Assembly: GCA_036674765.1 (NCBI GenBank)
Contig: JARVKI010000003.1
Location: 558,001-622,000, forward strand
Source: Seiridium cupressi
Taxonomy: Eukaryota; Ascomycota; Sordariomycetes; Amphisphaeriales; Sporocadaceae
Direction: 5' to 3'
DNA length: 64,000 bases
The stretch's first letter is position 1. Each line of letters opens with the position of its first letter. The translations under genes were made by a program, and so were the position numbers. The notes under the pieces are model-generated. The model had not been told where the DNA came from and did not search any database. It saw only the letters and a list, made by a program, of their open reading frames with translations. Below, one piece after another: positions 4,646 through 56,901 of the stretch.

Positions 4646-5930
4646 CTAGAGACCCCTATTGGGCAATGAAACCGCCTCGTCCCGAATCTTGGGTGCGCGC
4701 AAACCCATATGCGGAAGGTAAGACCCTGGAAAGAAGACATTGTATATTACAACGACCAAGGCGATTGGCAACGCGTCAGAAACATACATACTAGGACTTC
4801 TATGAGCATCAACTCGCTTTTCGGGAATAAGACTGATATACTTACAACCACTCATACGTCGAGACATAGCCGCCTTTACCCTCGGCGAATTCGGTCATTC
4901 TGTATACAGACCGGATCTAGTCGTTGATTGTTAAGAAATTGTTGCATCGGAAAGGAGGATCATGACCAACCAAAATCAGCGCACAAGATGTATTCACAGC
5001 GAATAGTATCCTCTTCCAGTGAGGATTGAATCTCCGCGATGAGTCTTGCAGCGTTACCGTCTTATCGCCCTCCGTTTGCAGAATCTTCGACTCCAACTCG
5101 CTGGCGAATTGCTTAGAGATGACGTGGAAGCGGGCCGCGACAATCGAAAAGACGCCGAATCCAGCTAACTGAACAGCAACTCCGGTCATCGCAATGTCCT
5201 TTCCCCTGTTGACCTTGTCCTGGGCGTTCTCGTCTGTAGGTTGCGTTCCGACGACTATTGCGGCGCCAGCTCCTTGAAGAATAAGGGCAATGAGATCGCA
5301 GCCAACAAATATGGGCGTTGCCCAACGAGCTTGATCATATGTATCAGAGGTATGTTTGAGGTCTCGAAGAGCGGCAAACTCACCAGGGACCCAGAGCAGT
5401 TTAACTGTTCGAGCTCTTGCGGGGATGACGTGGATGACGATTCTGCCGAACACAACGTAGATGATTCCCGCCATGAAGACGGGCGCCAGGATTATGCAAA
5501 GGTACTGCGCGATATAGAGGCCTCGACTCGTCACATCGGCGGCGGACTTGATTCTTACGCCAAAGCCAAAGCAATCCACTGAAAACTGTTAGCTACGAAG
5601 CCGAGGAAGATATGGATCTTGGCGCAAAACCGTACGAGCTATTGCAAAAACCATCACCAGCCATACCCAAGAACGTTTGCGGACGGTCTGGATAAGAGCA
5701 TAGATAGCGTTCGCGCCGAATACCGCACACTACAGCACTTAGGGGTTAGTGGTCCCTCCTTCAAGTTTGATTGCCAAACTATAGGAAGATGAGTGCAACC
5801 TTCACCCAAGGGGCAAGTGGTGGCTCGAGAAACACGTCGTAAAGGGCATGGAACAACACCAGAAGTTACTTACTGCCACCGCAGCGGCTGCCACTTGAGG
5901 ATCATAGGCGTAGAACGACTTGGTCGTCAT
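4646..5930 (-). CDS. RTA1-like seven-transmembrane protein
   Basis: Member of the fungal RTA1/RSB1 (lipid-translocating exporter-like) family of seven-helix membrane proteins, linked in yeast to sterol-drug resistance and sphingoid-base export. Five exons: 5930-5874, 5729-5636, 5578-4971, 4916-4846 and 4790-4646, giving 324 residues, usual for the family. Seen: N-terminus MTTKSFYAYDPQ, the family block FGFGVR, helices around YIAQYLCIILAPVFMAGIIY and LIALILQGAGAAIVVG, and the C-terminal block with SDALPIALVVVIYNVFFPG. All junctions keep frame. Exon 2 uses a GTACGG donor, and the family alignment across it (IALDCFGFGVR) supports it. Intron 1 is an introner-like copy, listed separately. The substrate cannot be told from sequence. 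Confidence 0.9.
5730..5873 (-). repeat. Introner-like intron E (RTA1 intron 1)
   Basis: 144-nt spliceosomal intron between exons 1 and 2 of the RTA1-like gene, phase 0. Its first 31 nt match the sugar-porter intron 5 (52549-52579) at 25 positions, and five of the six differences are transitions. Its last 50 nt match the Git1-like intron 1 around a shared CTAACCCC branch region. A 6-bp hairpin (AGTTTG/CAAACT) lies just upstream of the branch site. It therefore ties the two halves of the intron family together. Confidence 0.75.
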
Positions 5931-41982: not shown

Positions 41983-43258
41983 ATGTCGCAGGCTATTCCA
42001 CTGACGCGCCTAGGCGGTAAAGGTACGCGCTGCCAACGCGCTTCCCCCTCCAATTCCCCCGTATCAGATGGGATGGGGAAAATAGCCCCTGACTCCCAAA
42101 CTGTGCCCGCCCAAGCGCATCATGCTCCACCCATATCGTAGCTGCTCATGATGCATGTGTTGGTGGTGTCAGCCATGCTGGATGACTTACACAATGTGGT
42201 ACTATTTAATGATATACTTCGACTGATTCCAATTGGCTGTCTATAGCCTTCAACCACAGTGCCAATAATGACGCCGAGGCTGAATACGACCGGCTGCGCG
42301 ACCTTGCGCGCGAGGAGGCCAAGAAGCGCGGTGCGTGCTTCGAGCGGGTATGTTATCACGGTCCGAAAGCCACGAGGATTCTTGGGGTTTACTATTCGCC
42401 ACGCTAGAAGCCCGTGAGACTTTCACTTTAGAAACATCAAGCTAACATGTCGCAACTAGTCCCACCAAGCCTATGAACGCGGAGATGGTGCCGAGGCGAA
42501 AGAGCTGAGCAATGAGGGCAAGCAACACGCGGCCAAGATGGACGAGTACAACAAGCAGGCCTCGGACTACATCTTCCGGGAGAACAACGCGCCCGGCCGC
42601 GTCGCCGATGACACCATCGACTTGCACGGCCAGTTCGTCGAGGAGGCTGAGGACATGTAAGCAACCTTCAGAGTTATTTCATGCCCCGTATAGCGTGTTT
42701 TGGGAGTTTACCGGCTCCTGATTCAGCGTTCCTGTTCTCGAAACATGGTCTACAACTCCCGACAGCTCGTCAAGTAGGTTAGAAGAAGCAAAGACTGACT
42801 CCAGATGTTGTAGTCTGGAACAACGCATCCGCTATGCTCAGCAGCAAGGCCAGACACACCTGCATGTCATTGTGGGCAAGGGCAACCACTCGGCCAACCA
42901 CGTCCAAAAGATCAAGCCGAGAGTGGAACAGGTGTGCCAGGAGCTGGGACTGCAGTACTCGACCGAGGAGAATGCCGGGCGGATGTATGTCAATCTCCAG
43001 GGTGGAAGCGCCACGCCGCCGCCGTTGACCGCACAGCCGCCCGCGCAACACGGCGGTTATTCGCATGGTGGTGGGCAACAGCAGCATCATGGAGGTCAAC
43101 AACACCATGGTGGACAGAGCCAGTACCCTGGCGGCCAGCAGCAGCAACAGCAACAACAGCAACAGCAGCAGCAACAACAACAGGATGGTGATATGGCCGA
43201 GAAGATCGTTACTACGTTGCTTAAGAAGCTAGAGAAGGCTTGCTGTGTAATGATGTAG
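41983..43258 (+). CDS. Smr-domain protein with DUF1771, polyQ and CaaX-like end
   Basis: Predicted RNA- or DNA-acting Smr (small MutS-related) domain protein. Four exons: 41983-42022, 42247-42347, 42460-42656 and 42814-43258, giving 260 residues. DUF1771 comes first (NDAEAEYDRLRDLAREEAKK, SHQAYERGDGAEAKELSNEG), then Smr with DTIDLHGQFVEEAE and LHVIVGKGNHS, the DLHG and GKG motifs of the nuclease-like fold. A Gly/His/Gln tail contains 16 Gln in a row and the protein ends KACCVMM, a CaaX-type prenylation box (CVMM). Exon 1 codes MSQAIPLTRLGGK; its donor could be GTAAAG or GTACGC (both phase 1), and the second was chosen. Intron 3 is an introner-like copy, listed separately. Confidence 0.88.
42657..42813 (+). 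repeat. Introner-like intron A (Smr intron 3)
   Basis: 157-nt intron, phase 2, splitting the Ile codon of the EEAEDILEQR block of the Smr domain. Its first 31 nt match sugar-porter intron 5 at 28 of 31 positions, all three differences being C/T. The similarity continues through a GCGTTCCTG block and an AACATGGTCT block to the end (TGTTGTAG), and the total lengths are 157 and 156 nt. The host genes are unrelated and 10 kb apart. Confidence 0.85.
43136..43183 (+). repeat. CAG/CAA repeat coding Gln16
   Basis: Sixteen glutamine codons in a row within the last exon of the Smr-domain gene, a mix of CAG and CAA, so not a pure triplet repeat. Length variation between strains would be expected. Confidence 0.9.
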
Positions 43259-43935
43259 AGAGAGCATCGCGTGTGAATAAAGCGGATGGCTTTTTTGGAT
43301 ACCAATTTGGAAAATACTTGGGCATAACTCGGAAGCTCATGTTTTCATGGATATACAGCTGCAATTGCATAATAGATCATTCCTAGATGATAATAGCAAG
43401 AGCCAATGGGCAAGGAGCACGAACCAGATGTCTTGTTTGGACATTGGGGCTATCGGGAATCATAATTCAGTACAGCATTTGCTTTTGACCTAGAGTGAAA
43501 CCAACGCCTATTAACAACACCGATGTGCCTATCCAGTTCCTAAACTGCGATTATAATGCCAATGAAGCAATGTCATCCCGTATAGGGACAAGACACATGA
43601 ACGACGTATTTTCACATTCGGCTCCTTCAAGTCTTCCGTGGTTTACCAATGTTGCCCGTCGTTCTCGATACATGCTCCTTGAATCGTGTAAGTGACAAAA
43701 TCATGGAATGATCATCCGAAATTGATATTCACCAGGGTACCTTGCCCGACCGCGCCTTTTGTTATCAATACCAGCGCTCTCCTAAGCAGCGTCGGGCTCT
43801 TCCACTAGTTTCCGGCGTCAGCTTGAATGGACTAGAATTTGAGTGGTGAGGACCACTCGTGGCTTCAAACGACGGAAAACACTCCGTCAAGACGGTAGGC
43901 ACACTTATGCATACGCTGGAGAAATAGAACAGGCT
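43259..43935. other. convergent spacer
   Basis: 677 nt between the 3' ends of the Smr gene (+) and the DUF3716 gene (-). No gene. The left end of the DUF3716 transcript may extend into it (see that entry). Confidence 0.45.
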
Positions 43936-45066
43936 TTACTTACTAATGGCTTCCGGTGGCGGCGGGTGTCCCTGAGCTTGTGCTTGAACTTGGGCATGCT
44001 CATGCACTTGTTCTTCATGAACAGTCTCTTCGTAGGCAACAATTTGGAAAGCCAGCTGCTTGGCAGCCGCCTCAATCATCAGCATATGACGGGTTCTCTT
44101 GTCAGCGGCTCTGATGTCAGCCATAGCACGCTCGATGGTGTACTTGACAACGGGATCCGCAGAAGCAGGTCCGGAGACGTAGTTAAAGCCACCCAGAGCC
44201 GCAGTGGGTATCGCCAAGTTGTTGAATGAACCATCGCCCATGACGGCTCCGGGATGAGCGGCGGGATTGCGGGTCTCTGCAAGCTCAAGCATCAGCCAGC
44301 TGTCGAAAGGCCGTGTGGTTTGGGTGGTTTCCTTACCGTGGAACGAGCATCGAGCACCGGACGCGTTGAACCAACAATTGGCACAGCTACCACACATCTG
44401 ACCATCCACAATGACACAGGTCGTCCACGGTCCATGGCCCTTGTGGCAATTCTTGCAAGGGACCGGTGCGGACTCGCCAGCAATATGAGCAAACAGAGCT
44501 TCGACATTGCTCCGTCGCTGCAAGTTCAATTGCTGCTCGGGCCGGCGCTGTTGCGCCAGGCGCATTCCGGGCTCGCGTGCCAGCCTCTTGGCCAACGCGC
44601 TCTCCACGATGACATTCTGGTAGCCCGACTGCATGGCCAGGCCCTCGGTGGTGTGGCCAACGTCCTCTGGCCCCTCATGCTGGCCCATTTGGTCGAAATC
44701 GGGGTGTTCATGCGGGTTGACGCCCATGGGGTTCGCGCCGCTGCTCGCTAGGATGCTGGCGGCTGTGCTCAAGTCCATCTGCTGCTGCTGAGCAGCAGTG
44801 TGCTGGGCAGCGGCGGCAGCGGCGGCCGCAGCAGCCTCGGGGTCGAAATCATTGTGGTGGTCGTGATGCTGCTGCTGGTCGAGCTCGTCCGGACCCCCGC
44901 CCAGGTCGTGGTCATGGTGGGCCTCGAGGTCGGGGTCTTGATTGGGGACGGTGTCCTGGAGGCCGACGCGACGCGCACCGGGACGGCGAGGCGTGGCGGC
45001 AGGTTTGGTCACCTTGGACGGTCGACCTCGCGGGGGTTGAATGATGCCTCCTCTGGCGGCCGACAT
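43936..45066 (-). CDS. DUF3716 protein with AT-hook-like start
   Basis: Fungal-specific protein with a Cys-rich DUF3716 module: CKNCHKGHGPWTTCV, then MCGSCANCWFN and RCSFHG, likely a zinc-binding fold, near residues 200-245. The N-terminus holds PPRGRPSKVTKP, close to an AT-hook, suggesting a chromatin role. Asp/His-rich, Ala10 and Gln-rich stretches follow. The frame is open for 376 residues, but a good 60-nt intron sits inside it (44336-44277, GTAAGG donor, CTGAT branch, GCAG acceptor); splicing would give 356 residues with CSFHETRNPAAHPG. The stop codon lies within GTAAGTAAAG, itself a strong donor, so the last exon may lie further on; one possible acceptor adds only a few residues. Confidence 0.8.
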   Translation of the reverse strand: MSAARGGIIQPPRGRPSKVTKPAATPRRPGARRVGLQDTVPNQDPDLEAHHDHDLGGGPDELDQQQHHDHHNDFDPEAAAAAAAAAAQHTAAQQQQMDLSTAASILASSGANPMGVNPHEHPDFDQMGQHEGPEDVGHTTEGLAMQSGYQNVIVESALAKRLAREPGMRLAQQRRPEQQLNLQRRSNVEALFAHIAGESAPVPCKNCHKGHGPWTTCVIVDGQMCGSCANCWFNASGARCSFHGKETTQTTRPFDSWLMLELAETRNPAAHPGAVMGDGSFNNLAIPTAALGGFNYVSGPASADPVVKYTIERAMADIRAADKRTRHMLMIEAAAKQLAFQIVAYEETVHEEQVHEHAQVQAQAQGHPPPPEAISK

Positions 45067-46090
45067 GGCGATGATGTTGTCGTCGGCTGTCTGGCAGTTG
45101 GATGGGAAGGCGCTGGAACTGATGCGAAAATCAGCTGTCGGCAGCTGCAGCGGTGACAGTTGTGCGAGGTTTGGTAGAGTTTTCCTCTGCTCGGTTTAGA
45201 GCCGGGAGCAGGAGCTGTGCTGAGCCCTGGATTACTTAAGGCACGCTAAGGCATGGGCCAGGGGACCACCGTGGTCTCTTTGACCCACCCCAACCCCCCG
45301 GGACCCCCACAGTTGTTGGGTTGAGCCAGACCAGGAGCGACTTGAAGCCACGTGAATTTGAGTTCAAGATCTAGATCAAATATAGCAAGAAATCTTCGTT
45401 TTCTCTCGACATGACATCTTCCCTTCCTTAGTATTGCGTCTATCAAGTCACATGCGATTATGTCGCCTTCGTAGTCTCCCTGGAAACAGTGACAAGTGCT
45501 TGTTGAAGGACTAATGAAGCCACTCCTCATGTGCCGAGTGGTCTGCTCATTCACGGAACTTTCTATATTGTGATCTAGTCATGGGAGAAAAGAAACACCA
45601 CGACCACTTGCAAGAAGATATCTATCTAAATGCGTGATTGCCTCCACTAACCCCCTCATGCTCACTCTAGCCTCCTTCTTTCCTTTTTTCCCCTTCTTTC
45701 TTCTTCTCTTTCATGTTTGACTGCAACACTGAGTCTAAGTCAGTAACCTACATAGTTAACAATCAAAACCAGCATTGCATTTTCACTACCCACTTTCTTC
45801 TTCTTCTCCCTATCACAATGGGAGGCAATCTTTTCGAGAGATCTCCTTAGCATGTTCAGCTAGTCGTTGGTTTGTACTATTTGAAAGCTTGAATAGGCGA
45901 GGTGTACCCCTAGATATCACATTAGACTCGTCTTAAATTACAAAAACCATAATAACAACGTTTAGGATCTATCTTTTTAAGTTTTCCGCCCAAATCTGTC
46001 ATTTTAATGCTTGATAGCATCGCTATCTACTGGGAGATTATCTCCGTAGAGTCCAACAACTGATTGACCAGCATAGCCAAGGTGACCACG
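45067..46090. other. gene-free stretch
   Basis: About 1 kb holding the DUF3716 promoter and the chitinase 3' flank. A marked pyrimidine-rich (CTT-rich) tract runs at about 45.66-45.81 kb. No gene. Confidence 0.5.
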
Positions 46091-47158
46091 TCATGTTGGC
46101 CTTGGCATGGCGTGCAGTGCTCGATATCCGGTGCGAACCAAGCTATCTGGTCCTTTGACGTCGCCCACTCCAGTCCAGTAAAATAGTCCGCCGAGTCCGA
46201 TCTGCCGCACATACTCTGCCTTTCTCTGGACAGTTGCGGGAATGTCAAAGCTGGCAAACCCTTTCCCTCCAGGCGATCTATCAACAAAGCTCGCCGCTCC
46301 GGAATGATGATCAACTGCCGCACATTGAATCCACTCGGGCGGCATCTCGTTATAATCCATCTCGTGCGCTTTCTGAAAAGGTTGACCGATTCCATATGCT
46401 CCTTCAAACGTCCTGGTATACACCGGAATTCCCAGGACAATTTTCCTGGCTGGAAATCCTCGTGACAGAATATAGTCGACGCCTTCATGGCAGGAGCTTC
46501 TCAGTTGGGGATAGATGTTCTCCAGTGGTCCGGGCGGTGGCAAGAGCTGGGCTTGGTGACCGCTGACGTCGGTCCAAGGACCATTAAAGTCGTATCCCAT
46601 TAGGTTTAAGTAGTCAAGTAGTTGGCCAGCTGCGGTAAGGTCGATATGCTTTAGACAATACTGTCCAACCGGGAGTGCAGTGCTGATCATAAACCATGGA
46701 GATGGAAGTGCCCTGCGCAGTTCGTAGAACATAGCCACATAATTCATACCATCGATTGGCGTTTCCGGATGCTCCCAATCGATGTCCACGCCATCCAACC
46801 CCCATTTTTCACAGAACTCCCGACAGCTCCTGGCAAAGGTAGAGCGCGTGGCCGGGTTGGCAGCCATTGCTGGGAATTCAGCGCTACCACCCCCACCGCC
46901 GATGGAGACCAGTGTCTTCAGCCCGGGGACTTGAGACTTGAGTTTGGCAAGTGCTGGGAGACACCCTTTTTCTCCATCTGTTGAGATGGTACAGTCGGCA
47001 TAATCATCTAGAAAACGCAGTGTGCCATCTTCGTTAACACGCACGAAGGCGTAGTAGACATGGGAGATAGCATCGAGTTGGAGAGATGACGGGGCATCGC
47101 CTTTGTATATGCGCCAGCAAGGATAATATACGCCGTTAACGAAACCGGAGTTTTCCAT
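46091..47158 (-). CDS. GH18 chitinase without signal peptide
   Basis: Glycoside hydrolase family 18 protein, expected to cut chitin or related N-acetylglucosamine polymers. Single exon, 355 residues, start MENSGFVNGVYYPCWRIYKG. The substrate-binding motif is LVSIGGGGGS (83-92) and the catalytic motif DGVDIDWEHP has D122, D125, D127 and the acid E129, all intact. Further family marks are YLNLMGYDFNGPW, IVLGIPVYTRTFEG and a C-terminal GLGGLFYWTGVGD. There is no N-terminal hydrophobic stretch, no chitin-binding module and no Ser/Thr linker, so an intracellular or non-classically secreted enzyme is likely, perhaps for wall turnover after lysis. It is close in form to other single-domain fungal chitinases. 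Confidence 0.93.
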   Translation of the reverse strand: MENSGFVNGVYYPCWRIYKGDAPSSLQLDAISHVYYAFVRVNEDGTLRFLDDYADCTISTDGEKGCLPALAKLKSQVPGLKTLVSIGGGGGSAEFPAMAANPATRSTFARSCREFCEKWGLDGVDIDWEHPETPIDGMNYVAMFYELRRALPSPWFMISTALPVGQYCLKHIDLTAAGQLLDYLNLMGYDFNGPWTDVSGHQAQLLPPPGPLENIYPQLRSSCHEGVDYILSRGFPARKIVLGIPVYTRTFEGAYGIGQPFQKAHEMDYNEMPPEWIQCAAVDHHSGAASFVDRSPGGKGFASFDIPATVQRKAEYVRQIGLGGLFYWTGVGDVKGPDSLVRTGYRALHAMPRPT

Positions 47159-48432
47159 AGTTGTGGCAGCGGTGAATTTGGAGCTGCCGAAGAGCAATTT
47201 GTGCTGAACTCGGGTCGTCTTATCGCAAGCTCAAGGTACAATATGACTTATAATACTGATCGGCCAAATTTTCAAGAGGATACTCAGAATCAGATTGCCT
47301 AGGTGATAGGAGAAAAACTATGATCTGGCGAAATGGTGTGACTCTAGGTGGAGTGAATGATTAGGAGCTGTCTGAGGGATGTGCTTTACGATTGAGTGTG
47401 CTTGAGGAAAGAAGTGATTCGACTGACAGCGAGTAGCATGGCAAACGGAAGGTGCCTCTCTACCAGCTTATTTCTTGTTGCGAATCCAAATCGTATTAAG
47501 TTTCGAGGGTTCCCGCCAAACACATTGACACAGCCACGGGCGGCGGCTTAGGTGCTCGTGGTCGGTGCCAGAAGACTGGACCTAGCGTGTTTCATGAGCA
47601 TATTGATACAGTGAGAGCGCTACTCCCACTGCGAAATTCAAACAGAACGCAGGGCATCGTTTCTCTAAGCAAGCACAGGTTTACTGCCATGAAGGCATAT
47701 GATGAAATGATTTCAGTGCATTACAAGTTCGCTGCGGCACTTCGTAGTTAGTAAGATGCACAGTTTCAAGAGAGGCAGCTTTAACTGTTTATGTATATGC
47801 ATGCTTGTATGTAGTACGCTAACTATTCGCAAGTGACTAGCACTAGGTTAGTGTTAACTATGCATGTAGGAAATGACTTGGTCTATTATCATACAGGCAT
47901 GCAGTTAGCAAGCAAAGTTTCCCCTTGGTTCTAATAGCGAGGTCGACATCCCGACCCTTGGTTACATGCAAAAGGGACCGAACACAAAACTTCATGCCAA
48001 CAAAGCCCATTCACTCTCCCGAATATCGCCATTGGTGGAATGACCGTGTTTGGTGCAGTCAAGCACACCGCGTCTGGATCCTTGGTCCGCGTAGTCTTTG
48101 TAGGATGATGAAATCGATCCCGACCTGCTGACTGCAACGATGATCATGTCGAATGTCTCGAGTGGCTCTCTGTTCCAACATTCATCACAAGGTGTGGGAT
48201 GAGAGGTATGGAAGACTGCTTGACTAAGGGATCAGCGAACATGCCATCGACACGACCTGAGTCGGCAAGTGACTAGGCCAGCTTCAAGCCAGGTGGGTTG
48301 CTCAGGACGCTCTGGCCTGGCTTGGAGCCCACACCCACGACGAGGACGCGGGCTCGGACTCGGGCTCGGGTTTGTGATGTATAGTTCAATGCAGAACTAA
48401 CTAAGGGAACTCCTTCGGCCACTGACTTTCGT
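47159..48432. other. gene-free stretch
   Basis: Chitinase promoter and spacer up to the dehydrogenase relic. It contains an inverted repeat (listed) and a short CTCGG-rich repeat at about 48.35-48.37 kb. No gene. Confidence 0.45.
48281..48328. repeat. 13-bp inverted repeat (hairpin)
   Basis: Left arm GCTTCAAGCCAGG (48281-48293) and right arm CCTGGCTTGGAGC (48316-48328) pair over all 13 positions with one G:T wobble, around a 22-nt loop. It could be an intrinsic hairpin, a protein site or a relic of a small element. It lies beside the decayed dehydrogenase gene. Confidence 0.7.
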
Positions 48433-49010
48433 AGTCAAGCCCTTGCGTTCCCTGATAGATTTTCCAACATCGACTTCGTCGAATGATATATCGATCCCCG
48501 AATCGACGTGTTGTATAGGAAGTCGCCCACAGGTCCTCTCGCTCTCGGTATTGAATAGAAGCTCGAGTGCTCTTTGGCCGATTTCCATGGTTTCTGCCAC
48601 ATCTTCTCGGTGTAAGCCCTCAGCAGTGGACAATCGCTATTGGCAAGGAGATAGCAACGATTGACCGGGATACAGTGCCAGCCAACACCCAGGCTGGGAG
48701 TATAGGGCATATACCGAAAGGCTTGGTAGCTGCAGCCCGACAGACTTCGTAAGGATCGATGTCATGGGGAATGCAGGCATTTGCCATCTCATTGGCATAT
48801 GCAATGCACATCATTCGTTGGCAACTCCCGTACAGCTTCATCCTCCGGCTTGGGCACGGGGGAAATTGTTTCACACACAAGAGCATACAGCCGGACGATG
48901 GCGTCAAGTGAACCGGGTACCACATCATCAAGTCCAGAAATAACATTCGGAATCTTGTGTACGACCGCTCTGTTTGCCCGGGATCGACTCTCTACAAATA
49001 AGCAGTATTG
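48433..49010 (-). pseudogene. Decayed nucleotide-sugar (UDP-ManNAc/UDP-Glc type) dehydrogenase
   Basis: Pieces of a UDP-sugar 6-dehydrogenase of the UDP-ManNAc type appear in order on the minus strand but in changing frames. They are RVDPG (preceded by a TAG where homologues have Glu), then KIPNVISGLDDVVPG at 48956-48831, then MKLYGSCQRMMCIAYANEM to CRAAATKPFG at 48841-48713, then MPYTPSLGVGWHCIPVNRCY at 48710-48570, then MEIGQRALELLFNTESERT in a third frame. At least four frame changes and one stop separate them. The N-terminal NAD-binding half is not recognisable and the active-site region is broken. It is a clear relic of a gene once complete, and cannot make the enzyme. Confidence 0.8.
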
Positions 49011-50666
49011 AGTTCGTATATGACTATACCGATAAATACGGTGACTTATCTCAGAAGACATTCCCGGGACTAAAACCCTCTCAATGCTTTCTCTGCTATA
49101 CGACGGCTTTTCGCTGTCCAAGACACCGGGAAGAGAGTTTTTCCTATGAAAATTCTACCCCTTTTTTTCGTGGCCGGAGCTGTCACCCAGATTCCATATC
49201 CTTGGACGAGAAATATTCATTTGCAACAATAATAACAACAACAAAGTCACCTCAGCAGCTTTTAGCGCCCTAGATGTACTGACAACTGTGAGCAATTGTA
49301 TAACAGAAATTATCACGAGCAAACCACACTATTGCATGCAGATCCCGGTCAGCGAAATACTGGGCGCTAGGATTACATTTTGGACACAAGTGGTCGGCAG
49401 AATCGTAATTGACCACAAGATGACTTGAATCCGTTTGGGGACCATGCCGCCCGGCGTAGCAGTTCTTCAGAGTCATCGAGATCATCAACCACTCGATTGG
49501 ATACTGTCCCAGACAACTCCCACCGAGAAGCAAGCCACCAAGTCGACCGACAGGGACGACAGCATATCACAAGCATACATACTCTAGAGGCGCTACTTCG
49601 AATTTCAATGGAAGCGACATCTCAACTGTTCTGGGGAGATCAGATGACTACTGCGATCGGCCCTCTCAAGCATGATCCGAAGGCTCAAGCGTAAATTTCC
49701 TGGCCGTTCCAATTTAGAGGACCCTCCGCCCTGGCCTGAACCACCTGTTTCGCCCAGGCACTTGAGCGGACCTTTTACAGAAAAAGGCAAATGCAAGGGT
49801 AAGGTTTCGCGGCTCTTGGTTCGCGGGAATGGCTACAGGGACCGCGTCCGTGCCGCCATGGATCTTTCACATGTCGGAGTCCCATTCATGTTATAGTAGC
49901 TTCAGGAACAGAAGCACAAACTGATCGCTGCCATCCATCAAGGTCGCGCAATGACAATGGCTGGTCCGGCCTGGGGCCATGCAACGTGAAGACCACGAAG
50001 TAGATGATGGCGCCATAGTCGTGGATCCTGGTTCCATACTCATGCCATCTCTCACATTGCAAACCTTGCCAAGTCCGCCACGAAAATAAATCGTTCCCTT
50101 TTGCAAATGCGGCTCCATCGTAAAAATATATGACGCAAGTGTCTCTGTCAAACTTTCGGGGTAGGGCTGTTGGCATCGGCCTGGTGATGAGAGGGGCCAC
50201 CCCACGAACCCCACACCCACAGTAATGAAACCCCAGACCTTCAGTGAGTGATTGGCGCGCATAAAGGAGTGATCGACACTCAACCTGCCCCAAACGATGA
50301 CAACATAGGCCTGGATGCCCCCGACGCGGTCAGCAGACCAACCACGTCGCTTCGACAGTGAAGCGGCTCAACTTTTCAACGGCTAGAGCTTCTCTGACTG
50401 CTGCTGGAAGCACATCGCTATGACTCGCTACCAGGGTTCGCGGTCCGGGATCGGCTTACTCCCGATAAATCATGCTGTTCATGCCAAGGCAAATGTTCAC
50501 GATGAGCTCGACTCGGGCCTGGCGGTGTCATGGGAGCCGAGTGAGCGGAACCTCCTCAGACCACATATACTTGAAAGCCCCGCCCTTTTGTGCCGGGTCT
50601 CCTCCTTGCCATAGTCACCAACGGAACTGAACACTCAAGAGGCACAGGCGTCCAGCGCGTTGCAGA
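49011..50666. other. intergenic stretch with unassigned frames
   Basis: 1.65 kb before the sugar porter. On the plus strand a frame at 49425-49694 starts MNPFGDHAARRSSSSESSRS and another at 49672-49896 holds RLKRKFPGRSNLEDPPPWPE; they overlap by 23 nt and together look like a disordered fungal protein, but no family or splice pattern is recognised. Long frames on the minus strand at 49886-50293 also lack any domain. Possibly a second decayed gene beside the dehydrogenase relic. Confidence 0.3.
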
Positions 50667-52816
50667 ATGGAGCGACTTCCAGGGTTCAATGTTGCCAACG
50701 TGCTAGAGAAGCGCCAGCTTCTCATAGCCATCAACTGTATTGCGGCCTTGTCCATCTTCTTCTTCGGCTATGACCAAGGAATGATGGGTGGCGTCAACAA
50801 CGCCAAGGACTACATCGACTTGATGGGGTTTGGTTATGTTGATCCAGTCACCCAGGAACCGATCGTCACGGACAGTCTATTGCAGGGCGGGATCGTGTCT
50901 GTATACTACCTCGGTACTTTATTCGGCTGCCTGTTTGGCGGGTGGATCGGAGATAAAATTGGGAGAGTTAAAACCATCGCAGTTGGAGCAGTATGGGCTA
51001 TCATCGGAGCATGTCTGCAGTGCTCGGCAATGAACCACAACTGGATGATCTGCGGTAAGCAAACCTTGAGACAGTGGAATATAGGCTCAGGAGTTGACAG
51101 TTCGTAGCTCGAGCGGTTAACGGTATCGGGACGGGCGTTCTCAACGCCATCGTGCCTGTTTGGGCCACTGAGACCGCTGAACACACCTCAAGAGGGCAGT
51201 TCATTGCTATTGAGTTCACACTTAACATTTTTGGTGTGGTCGTGGCGTATTGGCTGGAGTTCGGCTTGTCGTATGTTGACAACGGCAACTCTGCAGTGCG
51301 ATGGCGGTTCCCCATCGCCTTCCAGATCCTCCCGCTTCTAGTCCTCTTAGCCGCGGTGTGGTTTTTCCCAGAGTCGCCGCGTTGGCTAGTGAAAGCTGGA
51401 CGGGACGAAGAAGCCAGGTATATCTTGCGTCGTCTCCGCGGGTCGACCGGGGACGACGCTAAACGCGCTGAGCTTGAGTATCAGGACATTCGTAACATTG
51501 TGGAGCTGGAGTCCAAAGAGTCATCCAAAAACTCTTACTTTCACATGTTCTTCGGTATTGGTTCTGGCGAGTTGCATACGGCCCGCCGCGTTCAGCTCGT
51601 TATTTGGCTTCAGGTCATCCAAGAATGGGTGGGGATCGCTGGTGTTACGATTGTGCGTATATACTGGCGCTTCCTGTAAACTTGTGAGAAAACCGAGAGG
51701 CTGACATGTTTCTGTTGCGCAGTACGCCCCAACTATATTCCGTATCGCTGGATTCGATACAGTGAAAAGCCAGTGGATCAGTGGGCTAAATAATATCTTT
51801 TACATGTTCGCGACGTTGATTTGCGTCTTTACTCTAGACCGAATTGGGCGTCGGTGGACTTTGTATTGGGGAGCTGTTGGCCAAGGTGTTGCCATGTTTC
51901 TGGCTGGGGCTTTCTCGCGCCTAGGCCAAGAGGCCACGAGAGACGGCGATCTCGCTAAAGCCAACTCTTATGGAGCTGCCGCAGCTTCATTTGTGTTCAT
52001 ATTTACCTCGGTCTTCGGGGCCACATGGCTCACCGTACCTTGGCTATATCCGGGTGAGTACCTTCGAGTAGGCTTAGACTTGACCAGACTAACGAAATTC
52101 CAATAGCGGAGATATTTCCTTTACAAGTTCGAGCTAAAGGCAACGCCTGGGGAGTTTTTGGCTGGAGTATCGGCAACGGGTGGCTCACCTTGCTTTGTCC
52201 CGTTAGTAAGTGAATCTCGGTGTCATCCCATCCCTTTATTGTCTGTTTTAGGCGCAATCACTCTTTGATCGTGAACCATAAGCGATAATTCTCGATACTT
52301 CACCAAGCATGCTCGAAAACAGAGTCGCTGACACCCAGTGTAGTGTTCAATGCGATTGGAGAGAATACTCTGCACATATTCGGGGCGTGCAACATTCTCG
52401 CAATCCCGATCGTCTGGGCTTTCTATCCCGAGAGTAATCAAAGGACCTTGGAAGAAATGGATCTTTTGTTTGCTGCAGATACACCATGGGTTTGGGACGC
52501 TGAGAAAACATTTGAACGGCTCAAGTTGGAACAACCCGACCTGATTCAGTAAGTAACTTCCAGAGTTATTTCATGCCCCTTAAAGCCTGTGTTAGGAGTT
52601 GGTCATTCTTAGTTGAGCGTTCCTGCTCTTGGAACATGGTCTTCAGTTCCCGATACTTCGCCAAGCATAGCCGAAGAAAGGATCGCTAACCTTATGTGTT
52701 GTAGTGCTGCTAAGAAGGGGGAGAGGGTCGTTGACCCAGAGGTCGGAGTATTGGCACACCATGAGAATGGAGAAGTACCCATGCACGAGGAGCGTCTTGG
52801 AAAAGTCTCATCGTAG
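50667..52816 (+). CDS. MFS sugar porter
   Basis: Twelve-helix proton-coupled sugar transporter of the fungal sugar porter family, plasma membrane. Six exons: 50667-51054, 51108-51652, 51723-52053, 52107-52205, 52344-52548 and 52705-52816, giving 559 residues. Family motifs: FFFGYDQGMMGGV, GGWIGDKIGRVKT, FFPESPRWLVKAGR, LQVIQEWVGIAGVTIYAP, DRIGRRW, WLTVPWLYPAEIFPLQVRAK and YPESNQRTLEEMD. The C-terminal tail (DPEVGVLAHHENGE) is cytosolic. Every junction keeps frame. Introns 4 and 5 (138 and 156 nt) are related to each other and to introns in other genes, whereas introns 1-3 are ordinary short ones. The substrate cannot be assigned; hexose, xylose and lactose carriers all look like this. Confidence 0.93.
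52206..52343 (+). repeat. Introner-like intron C (sugar porter intron 4)
   Basis: 138-nt intron, phase 1. Its donor end aligns with intron 5 of the same gene (GTAAGTGAATCTCGG against GTAAGTAACTTCCAG, then YATYYCATSCC), and 52291-52310 matches 52649-52668 at 18 of 20 positions (CGATACTTC, CCAAGCAT). A GCTGAC branch site lies 19 nt before the acceptor AG. Confidence 0.8.
52549..52704 (+). repeat. Introner-like intron B (sugar porter intron 5)
   Basis: 156-nt intron, phase 2, with strong GTAAGT donor, GCTAAC branch site and GTTGTAG acceptor. It is the most central copy: it matches A at the 5' and 3' ends, C at the 3' block and E at the 5' block. Two small hairpins are visible, GTTCC/GGAAC (7-nt loop) and CTTCG/CGAAG (11-nt loop), the second just before the branch site. 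Confidence 0.85.
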
Positions 52817-53565
52817 ACGTATTACATCAATGCCACTGAACAGATCAGTTCAGATTTCGCGCACGGGGTATCCCCGTTCGACAACCTGGAACTTGAGGGC
52901 GAAGGGGGTTGAGGACGGATCGCCCTCGAGTCTGAGATATCCTAGACTATTGAAACTCTAAATTGGCGGTTACCCACGAGCTGTCTCAGACACGAAAGCT
53001 ATTGACCAGATATTGGTCTGTCCAAATGGAACTTTCCAGCATCCCAGTCATAAGTATTCTGTCCGTGGGTCTATTGGCTGAATTCCTGTGCTTAACCCAG
53101 TGCCGTTGGGTTGGTAAAGTTGTCGTGAGCATCCGCATGGCTATTTACTACAAGGTCGGTTAGTCATCAGAACACTAGGCTACGAGTTCATTCTGCCTTA
53201 CCTCGAAGCTTGATAATTCATTTGTATGCCGTGATGAACACTAAGAATAAAGGGTGCGCCTTTCTTGGATGTCTTTTGGTTAGGACGTATACATGCATAA
53301 CGTGGGCTTAATTAGGCTATTCTCGACATATCCTTGAAACGGGGTAGCCTGGACCCATGTCGCAACTTGCCGAGGTTCATTAAATACCGGCCATGTAGAC
53401 GCCCAGTATGTGATCACCCCCTGGATCAAATGCGCGAAGTCAAATGATTGCTCGATTATTATATTTGCCTTAGTGAGAGAATTGGGGGACGCCGAGAGCT
53501 TCTATAGTAAGATTCCGTCGTCAAGTTCTAGAATCTCATCGCCAAGACACAGAGGTCGTTATAAA
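52817..53565. other. intergenic region
   Basis: 749 nt between the sugar porter and the thioesterase-like gene on the same strand. No gene or repeat seen. ATAAA directly precedes the next start codon. Confidence 0.45.
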
Positions 53566-54561
53566 ATGGCTTCCTTCTCCCAAGTCCTGCAAGTCGAAGC
53601 GATTGATTCCCACTCATATCGCGCAAACCTCAGAGATGAGTGGAGCATTGGATCTGGTAAGAGAACTCGCTACTGAGACAGAGAAATAGCACTGATACGG
53701 AAAGTTCCCCATGGGGGCGTGGTCACTTCGGTTCTGCAGTCCGTCGCGCGGAAGCACTTCCTCACAACCCTGCAGTCTCAAAACCAGCCAGACTGCATCA
53801 CGCTTCACGTTGACTTTGTGCAACGGACGTCTGTCGGCCCTGCAGTTGTGAAGGTCCAGGACCTGAAGCTGGGCCGGCAGACGTCGACGGTGCAGCTCAC
53901 ACTTACGCAAGGAGGTCGCAATGAGGTCCTGGCGGTGCTTACGCATGCTAATATCGCACTCGAGTCGGGATTGAGTCTGCCTACAGCGTGGGCTCTCAAT
54001 CCTACTCCGCATCCCGCTGATTTAAACGCGCTCGCCAAGCACGGCACGGATGGAACCTGGGTACTGTGGAACTCGCCACGGCCGGATTTCAGGAAGGCCT
54101 CCTTGAATGTGAACATATATACTCCGAAGGGCGCAAGGGTGGACAGGGGGATCATGGAACAGTGGGTCAGGTTCAAGAACGGCGAACGCTTCACAAATAC
54201 ATGCTTGGGTTTACTGAGTGACATGTTTCCTCAGATGGCAGAGTCGTATACTGACGACCAGGAAGCATTGGAAAAAGCGAACATTTCGCAGAAGCAGTTG
54301 ACTATGCATTGGTATCCAACGCTGGCCTTGAATCTCGACATTAAGAAGCTTTTGCCAGAAGGAGGAGCCGAGTGGGTGTTTGTGAGAATTCAGTCAAAGG
54401 CCATTGCAAATGGGAGGAAGGACTTGGAGGTTATCATTATGGATGAGAAGGGCGAACTTGTCGCCTTGAGCCACCATGTGGCTATGATTCTCAGCTCGTC
54501 TAGAAATTTGGCGAAGAGGGGAGAAGGCAAGAAGAGCGGGAGCGATGGAAGCAAGCTATAA
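53566..54561 (+). CDS. Acyl-CoA thioesterase-like (hotdog fold) protein
   Basis: Member of the TesB/4HBT_3 thioesterase-like superfamily, which hydrolyses acyl-CoA or similar thioesters, cytosolic or peroxisomal. Two exons, 53566-53656 and 53705-54561, giving 315 residues. Seen: FSQVLQVEAIDSHSYRANLR with DEWSIGSVPHGGVV (first hotdog, with the conserved HGG), TLHVDFVQRTSVGPAVVKV, and the second hotdog with LTMHWYPTLALNLDIKKLLP and EWVFVRIQSKAIANGRKDLE, then DEKGELVALSHHVAMIL. No C-terminal peroxisomal tripeptide (it ends SKL-like: DGSKL), so the last three residues SKL are in fact a canonical PTS1 signal, pointing to the peroxisome. Confidence 0.88.
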
Positions 54562-55189
54562 CGCAGGCCATATCTGTGGTGCCATAACCTTATCGAAGAA
54601 GGTTCCGATCTATGAACAAGATACCAATACTAATCCAGGTATTTGCCGAACCGTCAGCAGCAGAGACAGGATACCCAGCGAAGAGAATGATTTTCGGTGG
54701 CGTTCCATTCATCGCCACACAGACGATGGTATAGTGAGGCATTCGGTAGCGACGCTGTAATACACAGTCGCAGTCTGCAGGACAGGTCTTGGCAATGCAT
54801 AATGCTTCAGAAGGGGCGCAGGAGTATAGATAGTCTTGGCGTAGCCCTGCCTGGCCAGTCCCCATAATCACAGCCCGCGAGGAGCGGAGCATTGGTCAAG
54901 TTGAAAACACTTAATTGATCCAATTAATCATATGCTTCCAATCAATGTTATTTTCCGGAGATATAGACGATAAGGACGAGATGTCTAACTCTGCAGAGTT
55001 TAGCATTACGCAGGCTATCCACTGTTCACCAGCTGCGGTTTCCACTTGGTTCAGGCTATAGTGGATTCATCGGTCCGAACGACTGCATCAGAGCGGAGGA
55101 CAGCGGAGGTTGACGAGATTTTTCTGCACGAGTATAAAAGACCTAGATATGAAGTCGGGGGTGTCGGGGCGCCTCCAGGAGCCCAAAGG
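54562..55189. promoter_or_regulatory. Thioesterase / Git1-like intergenic region
   Basis: 628 nt between two genes on the same strand, holding the promoter of the permease gene (TATA box listed). No other gene. Confidence 0.5.
55133..55140 (+). promoter_or_regulatory. TATA box of the Git1-like permease gene
   Basis: TATAAAAG lies 50 nt before the chosen start codon at 55190. A match this good at this distance suggests a short leader and excludes starts further upstream. Confidence 0.6.
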
Positions 55190-56901
55190 ATGCAGCGAGG
55201 AGCCATCATGTCAGTCAAGCAGGACCTACCGCCACAAATGGCCCCAGAGTCACGACCTGATGAAAAACGTGCACTTAATATGGAGGGAGTGTCTACCTCT
55301 CCAGACGAGAAAGCCGGGGATGGCTCCCTGGGACGAAGAGCCGGTAGCATTTTCACCATCGCAGGGAGTGCCATGGCCAATTTCTCGGATGGCTACCAGC
55401 AGAATCTTGCCTCGTCTACAAACGTAATCTTCAATCATTTAATTGGCACCGAAGCCTATACTTCAGCCAAACAGGTAAGCATTTGTGGTTAACCTCTTGC
55501 CTTTCTAAAAAGCTGTCTTGATGGTGGGAATTCCCTGGCCCGCGTGCCTTGCCCCTGGCTGTTTGCCAAGTATACACGAAGTAAAGACGTCTAACCCCCA
55601 AGTTCTGCATAGACAAGAATCTCAAACTCTTTACTCGTGGGTTCTGTTATTGGTATTGTGCTGTTTGGATATTTGGCGGATAAGTTCAGCCGTAAAGGGG
55701 GCAGTATGTTACATCTCATCCCTGCCACCGCTCATTGCTGATCGGAGAATTCAGTGCTCGTTACATCTGGACTGGTAGTCATTGGCAGTCTGATGTCGAC
55801 GCTTGCCTTCCAAGTGAACGGCGTAGATGCCATGATCTGGTATATGACCATTGCTCGCGGGACCGCTGGCGTCGGGGTTGGAGGAGAGTACCCGACGTCA
55901 GCCGCTGCCGCACTCGAGGGTTCACAGGAACATTTTGACTCCAATCGCGGGCCCATTCAGGTGCTTATTTCAACTCTGCAAGCAACCTCGGGCTCGGCTG
56001 TGTGCACTTTCGTCTATCTCATGGCTCTGATCGGCAGCGGGAATGACTTGATCATAGCATTCCACGCCATATATGCCATAGCCATTTTTCTGCCCATGTT
56101 CGTGGTGGTCATCCGGTGGCGCATGCAAGACGGGAAGTTATTTGCCCGTAGCAATTTCAAGAAGCGCTCCATACCGTGGCTGTTACTCCTCAGGCAGTAT
56201 TTCTGGCGCATTCTGGGTACTTCGGCGGCGTTCTTCCTCTACGATTTTGTCAACTTGTAAGTCGGCGGCCCCTCAGCGCTCCTGCACGATTGCGATGAAT
56301 TCCAAACTAACCGGGGGTTAGTCCAAACTCCATCATGTCATCAGTCATCATCGATTCTCTTGTCCCTGGCAAGAACGTCCGTCACGTGGCTTTGTGGCAG
56401 CTCTATCTCGCCCTAATGCCCATTCCTGGAGTTTTGATCGGCGCCTGGCTCGTGAATAAGATTGGGCGCCGCTGGACCGGAATCGTGGGACTGATGGGTG
56501 GCTATGTGATCATCGGCTTTATCATTGGCGGCTGCTACGAAAAGCTTACGCAAGATGCTCTGCCCGCATTTATCGTACTCTACGGCTTGCTTCAAGCGTT
56601 CGGACATCTCGGACCTGGTGCAACAATAGGCCTGATCTCGTGCGAGGCATTCCCGACAGCTGCCCGAGGAATGGGCTATGGTATAGCCGCCGGCTTCGGA
56701 AAGGCTGGGGCGGCGGTCGGCACTCAGGTCTTCACCCCCATCCGGGCGGCAGCAGGGCCGGCTTCGACATTTTATGTGGCTGGAGGTGTGGGCATCCTCA
56801 CTTCAGCTATTTACTACTTTCTGCCCGAGGGTAGCAGGACAGATCTAGAGCGGGCCGACGAAGACTTTGAGCGCTTGTTGGAAACACACGGATGCGAGTG
56901 A
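55190..56901 (+). CDS. Git1/phosphate-type MFS permease
   Basis: Twelve-helix symporter of the phosphate:H+ group, closest in form to glycerophosphoinositol permease Git1. Four exons: 55190-55474, 55613-55703, 55755-56256 and 56322-56901, giving 485 residues. Family marks: AMANFSDGYQQNLASSTNVI, GYLADKFSRKGG, TIARGTAGVGVGGEYPTSAA, FFLYDFVNFPNSIMSSVI and ALMPIPGVLIGAWLVNKIGR, GLLQAFGHLGPGATIGLI and FPTAARGMGYGIAAGFGKAG. The N-terminus is a charged 50-residue cytosolic stretch. A second Met at 55208 is an equally possible start. Intron 1 is introner-like. It probably takes up phosphate or glycerophosphodiesters; which one cannot be seen. Confidence 0.9.
55475..55612 (+). repeat. Introner-like intron D (Git1-like intron 1)
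   Basis: 138-nt intron, phase 0, the most diverged copy at its 5' end. Its 3' part aligns well with RTA1 intron E: GTTTGSCAA, then GAAG, then CTAACCCC, AAGT, CTG and TAG, in the same order and spacing. It also shares GCCAAG and CGAAG with intron B. The match spans the branch site but goes well beyond what splice consensus needs. Confidence 0.7.

Follow-up and report, generated by a model that had tools for sequence, protein, structure and literature searches.

Here we describe a family of introner-like elements (ILEs) in the genome of the fungus Seiridium cupressi, recognised through several introns of a 64,000-nucleotide (nt) stretch of contig JARVKI010000003.1, to which we refer as the window. 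Two of these introns, A (42657-42813, plus strand) and B (52549-52704, plus strand), belong with near certainty to a genome-wide introner-like family of approximately 157-nt introns residing in unrelated genes. We have hardly any doubt that the family occupies a sharp exonic target, most commonly of the form CA|TG, where the bar marks the junction and exon positions are counted negatively before and positively after it: C stands at -2, a base other than G at -1, T at +1 and G or A at +2. This target is a new feature, absent from the original prediction that had drawn attention to the window. As an explanation we favour, at a probability of roughly 55%, an RNA-mediated insertion resembling reverse splicing and involving target recognition, a mechanism which we infer from the features of the copies described below.

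The genome searched comprises 45.36 Mb on 228 contigs, the window being positions 558001-622000 of its contig. With intron B as DNA query 76 candidates were listed, and the 40 that were scored all had expectation values (E) of at most 2.1e-15, many of them being full-length; a young-type copy, intron A and a divergent copy gave 96, 91 and 76 candidates, respectively, with 40 scored in each case. A 28-base pattern taken from the 5' terminus, tolerating at most 3 mismatches, had 87 matches genome-wide, and a 31-base pattern of the 3' end had 89, while the reversed-pattern controls had 0 in both cases. After merging of the search lists, at least 113 distinct places on 68 contigs were obtained, 59 on one strand and 54 on the opposite one, 10 of them being supported by the 3' pattern alone and 7 by the 5' pattern alone. 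This number is a lower bound, as each of the DNA-query and pattern searches behind it was limited either in the places listed or in the mismatches allowed. The original prediction had proposed a search for further copies, and the objection that none exist fails; the introner-like family which it had postulated is far larger than the window shows.

For the copy-level counts, 42 of the 57 further listed places were taken in and 15 listed places were left out. The sequence examined contained 100 distinct matches, of which 90 were full-length and 10, partial or old, were excluded; exclusion of one full-length copy without AG gave the final set of 89 copies used hereafter. The exon flanks of these 89 copies are mutually dissimilar, the only exception being one pair located 20 nt apart in one gene. 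At locus L132 (G000:C66:230079-230612) two family introns of the same orientation are separated by a 20-nt exon within one gene. Degraded copies likely outnumber the clear ones: 168 kb of flanking sequence from 54 unique loci contained 2 more, which extrapolates to about 570 genome-wide, with a wide 95% range of 69 to 2049.

In 89 of the 90 full-length copies the similarity extends from splice site to splice site, with GT or GC as the first and AG as the last bases. Donors are GT in 88 and GC in 1 of the 89 copies, acceptors are TAG in 86 and CAG in 3, a CTRAY branch-like motif is located within the last 30 nt of 86, and the length falls between 150 and 165 nt in 85. The single GC-AG copy (L075, 1499-1656) has the remainder of the element intact. 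In another one, L098 (G000:C12:26009-26365), the 5' part (model positions 1-55) and the 3' part (94-157) are in different registers, as if the middle had been replaced or shortened. The closest pair of copies is 97.5% identical, the median identity to the nearest neighbour is 88.6%, and 86% of the length of the copy tree lies in terminal branches. The family is thus star-like, with several waves rather than a single very fresh burst. The original prediction that introns had been gained recently by copying is supported with respect to copying, while 'recently' is to be understood only in relative terms, since judging from these identities the majority of copies are not fresh.

The exonic target is evident from the base counts at the junction. 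CA|TG occurs in 36 of the 89 copies, as compared with 90 CATG words among 16546 4-mers of the flanks (0.54%). C is present at -2 in 60 copies; at -1 the counts of A, T, C and G are 54, 20, 13 and 2; at +1 T is found in 86 copies and G in 3; at +2 G and A are found in 77 and 11, respectively. Altogether, TG follows the junction in 75 copies, while the share of TG at any position of these flanks is about 7%. A set of 76 candidate ordinary introns, predicted from motifs and an open frame, looks different, as TG follows 10 of them, CA|TG surrounds 1, and G is the commonest base at -1 (27). The preference does not depend on age, with CA|TG present in 18 of the 44 copies of the younger half and 18 of the 45 of the older half. 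Moreover, the number of changes on the copy tree equals that obtained with shuffled labels, namely 28 versus 27.97 for A or non-A at -1, 13 versus 13.2 for TG, and 24 versus 24.6 for C at -2. The target variants are therefore not clustered on the tree, which indicates that each insertion picks its site afresh and that the site of the parent is not inherited. Microhomology with donor flanks was considered as a site chooser and is ruled out by the same test. Separately, it may be recorded that the family consensus itself contains the word CATG three times.

The introns are placed in genes predominantly in the sense direction, the coding score being greater for sense than for antisense in 76 of the 89 copies, and sense joins exceed frame-shifted joins in 57 of 89. 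An open frame across the join (90 nt on each side) was found in 68 of 89 copies in sense and 35 of 89 in antisense, against 51.3 with shuffled flanks, which is a moderate signal only. Seamlessness was judged on homologues of three hosts, encoding an Smr protein (intron A), a GH5 protein and a monooxygenase, with 120 homologues listed for each. At the junction of intron A all 120 listed Smr homologues are ungapped within 6 residues. Of the 120 GH5 homologues listed, 96 align across the junction, and 95 of these have tryptophan (Trp) at that very position. The monooxygenase junction is more variable, with Trp in 33, phenylalanine in 57, tyrosine in 26 and other residues in 4 homologues, and with a gap nearby in 24 of 120; among the 12 best-listed relatives Trp is present in 11. 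Because Trp is encoded by TGG only, the TG following the GH5 intron is old host sequence and nothing was added by the insertion. The possibility that TG is a part of the element, brought in as added bases, is in this way ruled out for GH5 and, by the ungapped alignments, for Smr. All three hosts appear to be joined without gain or loss of codons, splicing itself being predicted from sequence. The homologous exon is continuous across the junctions, an observation which dates no intron arrival; the top named homologues are from Seiridium cardinale (98% for GH5, 96% for the monooxygenase).

Repeats of 1-8 nt in the flanks of the 89 copies were not above those in shuffled flanks, so no target-site duplication was detected, and repeats of at least 5 nt near the junction were found in 1 of 89 copies versus 1.16 expected. 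This test rules out a duplication of TG as well as of any other length from 1 to 8 nt. The lack of duplications, the sense placement in 76 of 89 copies and the complete ends, taken together, favour a spliced RNA intermediate.

There is a suggestive tendency towards complementarity between the exon bases following the insertion and the 3' end of the intron itself. When the 75 TG insertions were compared with 735 native HTG sites of the same exons, differences were noticed at +3, +4, +7, +9 and +10 (p from 3e-3 to 2e-6), as well as at -9 (p 1.4e-3) and -2. The one at -9 is a purine bias, not corrected for multiple comparisons, for which none of the explanations offered here accounts. Positions +3 to +10 were then matched to the last bases of the intron, in the register where the base at +1 faces the intron's penultimate A and with G-U pairs allowed. 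The mean was 4.55 pairs out of 8, versus 3.52 (standard deviation 0.15) at phase-matched native sites, and none of 2000 resamples was as high; this comparison covers 82 copies whose phases were assigned by a weak codon score. Codon phase as a cause of the downstream bias was rejected, since the phase-matched control left the bias in place. Among 300 registers along both intron strands the natural one ranks first (1.18, the next being 1.04), and an excess of about one pair recurs in the young and the old half, in copies of the A type as well as the remaining ones, and whether or not the site is CA|TG.

According to the explanation we favour, complete introns of the canonical U2 type, roughly 157 nt long, would insert scarlessly and sense-wise into coding sequence. 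The spliced intron RNA would recognise CATG-like sites on the coding strand, be it in a transcript or in the unpaired DNA of an R-loop, in part through pairing of its 3' end with the downstream exon. By this pairing the terminal G with its 3' hydroxyl would be set at the bond to be opened; the intron would then be joined in by a reaction resembling reverse splicing and copied into DNA, and the insertions which splice cleanly would persist. The geometry of the pairing, with the 3' end lying on the coding strand beside that bond, fits reverse splicing into a transcript or an R-loop strand, a model cited in PMC8469720. As CATG is unlike the proto-splice choice of the spliceosome (AG|G), a further recognition step would be needed. 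It is a more tentative idea, possible rather than probable in our judgement, that the spliced introner RNA helps to choose its own site, a CATG-like word being recognised on the coding strand while the last ten bases pair downstream.

Several points weigh against reverse splicing guided in this manner. From what is reported of reverse splicing, a preference for AG|G-like sites would be expected, to which CA|TG is the opposite, and the weak sequence symmetry of the element also allows a DNA-transposon interpretation. The target is not universal, since 14 of the 89 copies lack TG, 10 of which have TA, while intron A has TC. The pairing pattern was spotted before it was tested and is thus post hoc; if only Watson-Crick pairs are counted, the natural register comes second of 300, the second-best register in the comparison above (1.04 versus 1.18) is an unrelated one, and positions +5, +6 and +8 have little or no pairing excess. 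Finally, the core of the target is not accounted for by pairing, since at +2, opposite a U of the intron, G is preferred over A (77 to 11).

The main rival, which we regard as unlikely, is a non-autonomous DNA transposon, whose transposase or integrase would read imperfect inverted ends and cut the palindromic CATG without duplication. A sharp target with a palindromic core and precise ends is indeed what an enzyme would be expected to leave, and the element has some symmetry: the consensus agrees with its own reverse complement in 90 of 164 aligned columns, a value reached by 4 of 1000 shuffles, and intron A gives a weak profile match on the minus strand (42663-42810, E 0.031), a sign of reverse-complement symmetry of the whole element. 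On the other hand, the inverted ends are imperfect, with a terminal stem of 10 pairs including mismatches (93% of cells paired); no target-site duplication was found, and no autonomous element turned up, though no search was aimed at one. Furthermore, a palindromic target would permit both orientations as well as intergenic sites, whereas 76 of 89 copies lie sense-wise in genes. As regards folding in general, the median z-score is -1.2, with 16 of 89 copies below -2, and covariation in stems that are 93-94% paired was not convincingly above shuffles.

Capture of intron RNA or complementary DNA at double-strand breaks, as has been proposed for stwintrons of Xylariales (PMC12403724), is in our opinion improbable. 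In this case CATG would reflect either the location of breaks or a short homology with the donor flanks. That model is consistent with single, seamless insertions and with an origin from RNA, and flanking homology is conceivable, given that the donors are mostly at xTG themselves. However, donor homology predicts that related copies share site variants, whereas the changes on the tree equal those with shuffled labels, and CA|TG at 36 of 89 junctions is not expected from random breaks.

Still less probable, by a good deal, is that insertion is random and that copies survive only at C-H|T-G exons, where they splice well. Every surviving copy must splice, and negative selection on introners has been reported (PMC9860276). 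Against this, ordinary introns predicted by motif do not have such flanks, as the counts of TG (10/76), CA|TG (1/76) and G at -1 (27/76) indicate. G at -1 usually aids donor recognition, yet the family avoids it (2/89). Lastly, it is scarcely credible that these are not introners at all but a repeat which landed in older introns, where repeats often sit, or paralogous genes with common introns, an explanation already contradicted by similarity bounded by splice sites in 89 of 90 copies and by flanks that are dissimilar apart from the single-gene pair.

The family resembles ILEs of Dothideomycetes (PMC8469720, PMC4457414) in that many near-identical canonical introns, apparently longer than usual, occupy unrelated genes, seamlessly and without duplications, and perhaps also in a degree of folding or symmetry. 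For those elements van der Burgt and colleagues noticed a preference for AG/GY sites, as related in PMC8469720, while the Seiridium family is found at CA|TG, with G at -1 in 2 and at +1 in 3 of 89 copies; the two are set apart here by their descriptions. Closer in taxonomy are the sister stwintrons and cropped sister introns of Hypoxylaceae and Xylariaceae (PMC8469720, PMC12403724), likewise from Xylariomycetidae, which share seamless insertion into coding exons, coding-strand placement, lack of duplications and, weakly, reverse-complement symmetry, although the symmetry of stwintrons is much clearer. Those stwintrons are described as mostly nested [D1,2] structures of about 185-207 nt starting with GGT, in contrast to the single introns of about 157 nt in Seiridium. 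Also, seemingly random sites without exon bias were reported by Fekete and colleagues for 288 Xylariales stwintrons, unlike the strong bias seen here (CA|TG at 36/89). The GGT start, hallmark of the [D1,2] type, would require G before GT, which occurs in 2 of 89 copies; judged by its flanks the family is therefore not a [D1,2] stwintron, and no separate search for internal introns was made.

With the DNA-transposon introners of algae and other protists (PMC9860276) the family shares mobility and splice sites borne by the element. In that survey duplicated target sites are found in 49 of 130 families, and in many the target supplies a splice site, unlike the Seiridium family, which is without duplication and carries both splice sites in the element. 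Gozashti and colleagues set ascomycete introner families apart as outliers that lack both inverted repeats and duplications. No report of a CATG target for introns, or of introners in Seiridium, was found in the open-access literature searched, outside of which subscription papers mostly lie. In the retrohoming of group II introns, the spliced intron RNA reverse-splices into a chosen site by base pairing with the target, and the RNA-guided insertion proposed here would follow the same logic. The Seiridium introns differ from group II introns in being spliceosomal, 157 nt long and without reverse transcriptase, and in that the proposed pairing would be made by the 3' end rather than by internal guide loops.

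Within the window, five introns had been ascribed to one family, four of which can be retained. A profile derived from sequence alone (55 copies, model length 157) includes A and B, while C and E are outside it. Intron A, 157 nt and of young type, interrupts a gene for an Smr-domain protein at AT|TC, off the usual target (E 6.6e-40). Intron B, 156 nt, lies in a sugar transporter gene at CA|TG (E 2.9e-31), and its target half-sites are read directly as CA at 52547-52548 and TG at 52705-52706, both on the plus strand. The same gene contains intron C (52206-52343, plus strand), a degraded intron of 138 nt at TA|TG (E 2.9e-10, model positions 1-154 of 157). Intron E (5730-5873, minus strand), degraded and 144 nt long, is located in an RTA1-like gene at CA|TG (E 2e-9, model positions 1-157); in the sense of the gene, CA precedes it at 5874-5875 and TG follows at 5728-5729, both on the minus strand and again read directly. 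The resemblance of C and E to the family is more than chance, as none of 1000 dinucleotide shuffles of either scored as high, and both are best regarded as old members; as a DNA query, E matched only itself. The agreements quoted for A with B (28/31) and B with E (25/31) were reproduced on recount.

Intron D (about 55475-55612, plus strand; 138 nt, junction G|A), in a Git1-like gene, is a doubtful member. Its profile match is limited to the 3' part (55548-55598, model positions 96-146) with E 0.87, and although none of its 1000 shuffles scored as high, 2 of 1000 random genomic 138-mers equalled its score; for this reason, and for its flanks being off the family target, its assignment is uncertain. 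In the shuffled-intron control named by the original prediction, C, D and E thus all outscored their shuffles. Nor are all five hosts unrelated, as had been supposed, since the host of D is a Pfam Sugar_tr protein, of the same superfamily as the host of B and C; dissimilarity does hold for the flanks of the 89 copies, save for the single-gene pair. The Smr host was assigned from homologues, and the RTA1 and Sugar_tr hosts from Pfam. In the sugar transporter gene (52206-52704) the old C and the younger B are about 205 nt apart, from which it follows that this gene was struck at least twice. Rfam gave no match within 42600-52800 of the window.

How fungal introners multiply is unsettled, the ascomycete families being ascribed to reverse splicing or to break repair, and their sites being called random or AG/GY-like. 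A large family with a sharp target that is not a proto-splice site, and without duplication, provides a signature which the competing mechanisms have to explain. The CA|TG signature can be tested in new insertions and in reporters, and offers a rare handle on the origin of introns. As far as the literature searched shows, Sporocadaceae now join the lineages with introners. If true, pairing by the intron 3' end would mean that spliceosomal introns can be gained by a route which is guided by RNA and resembles retrohoming.

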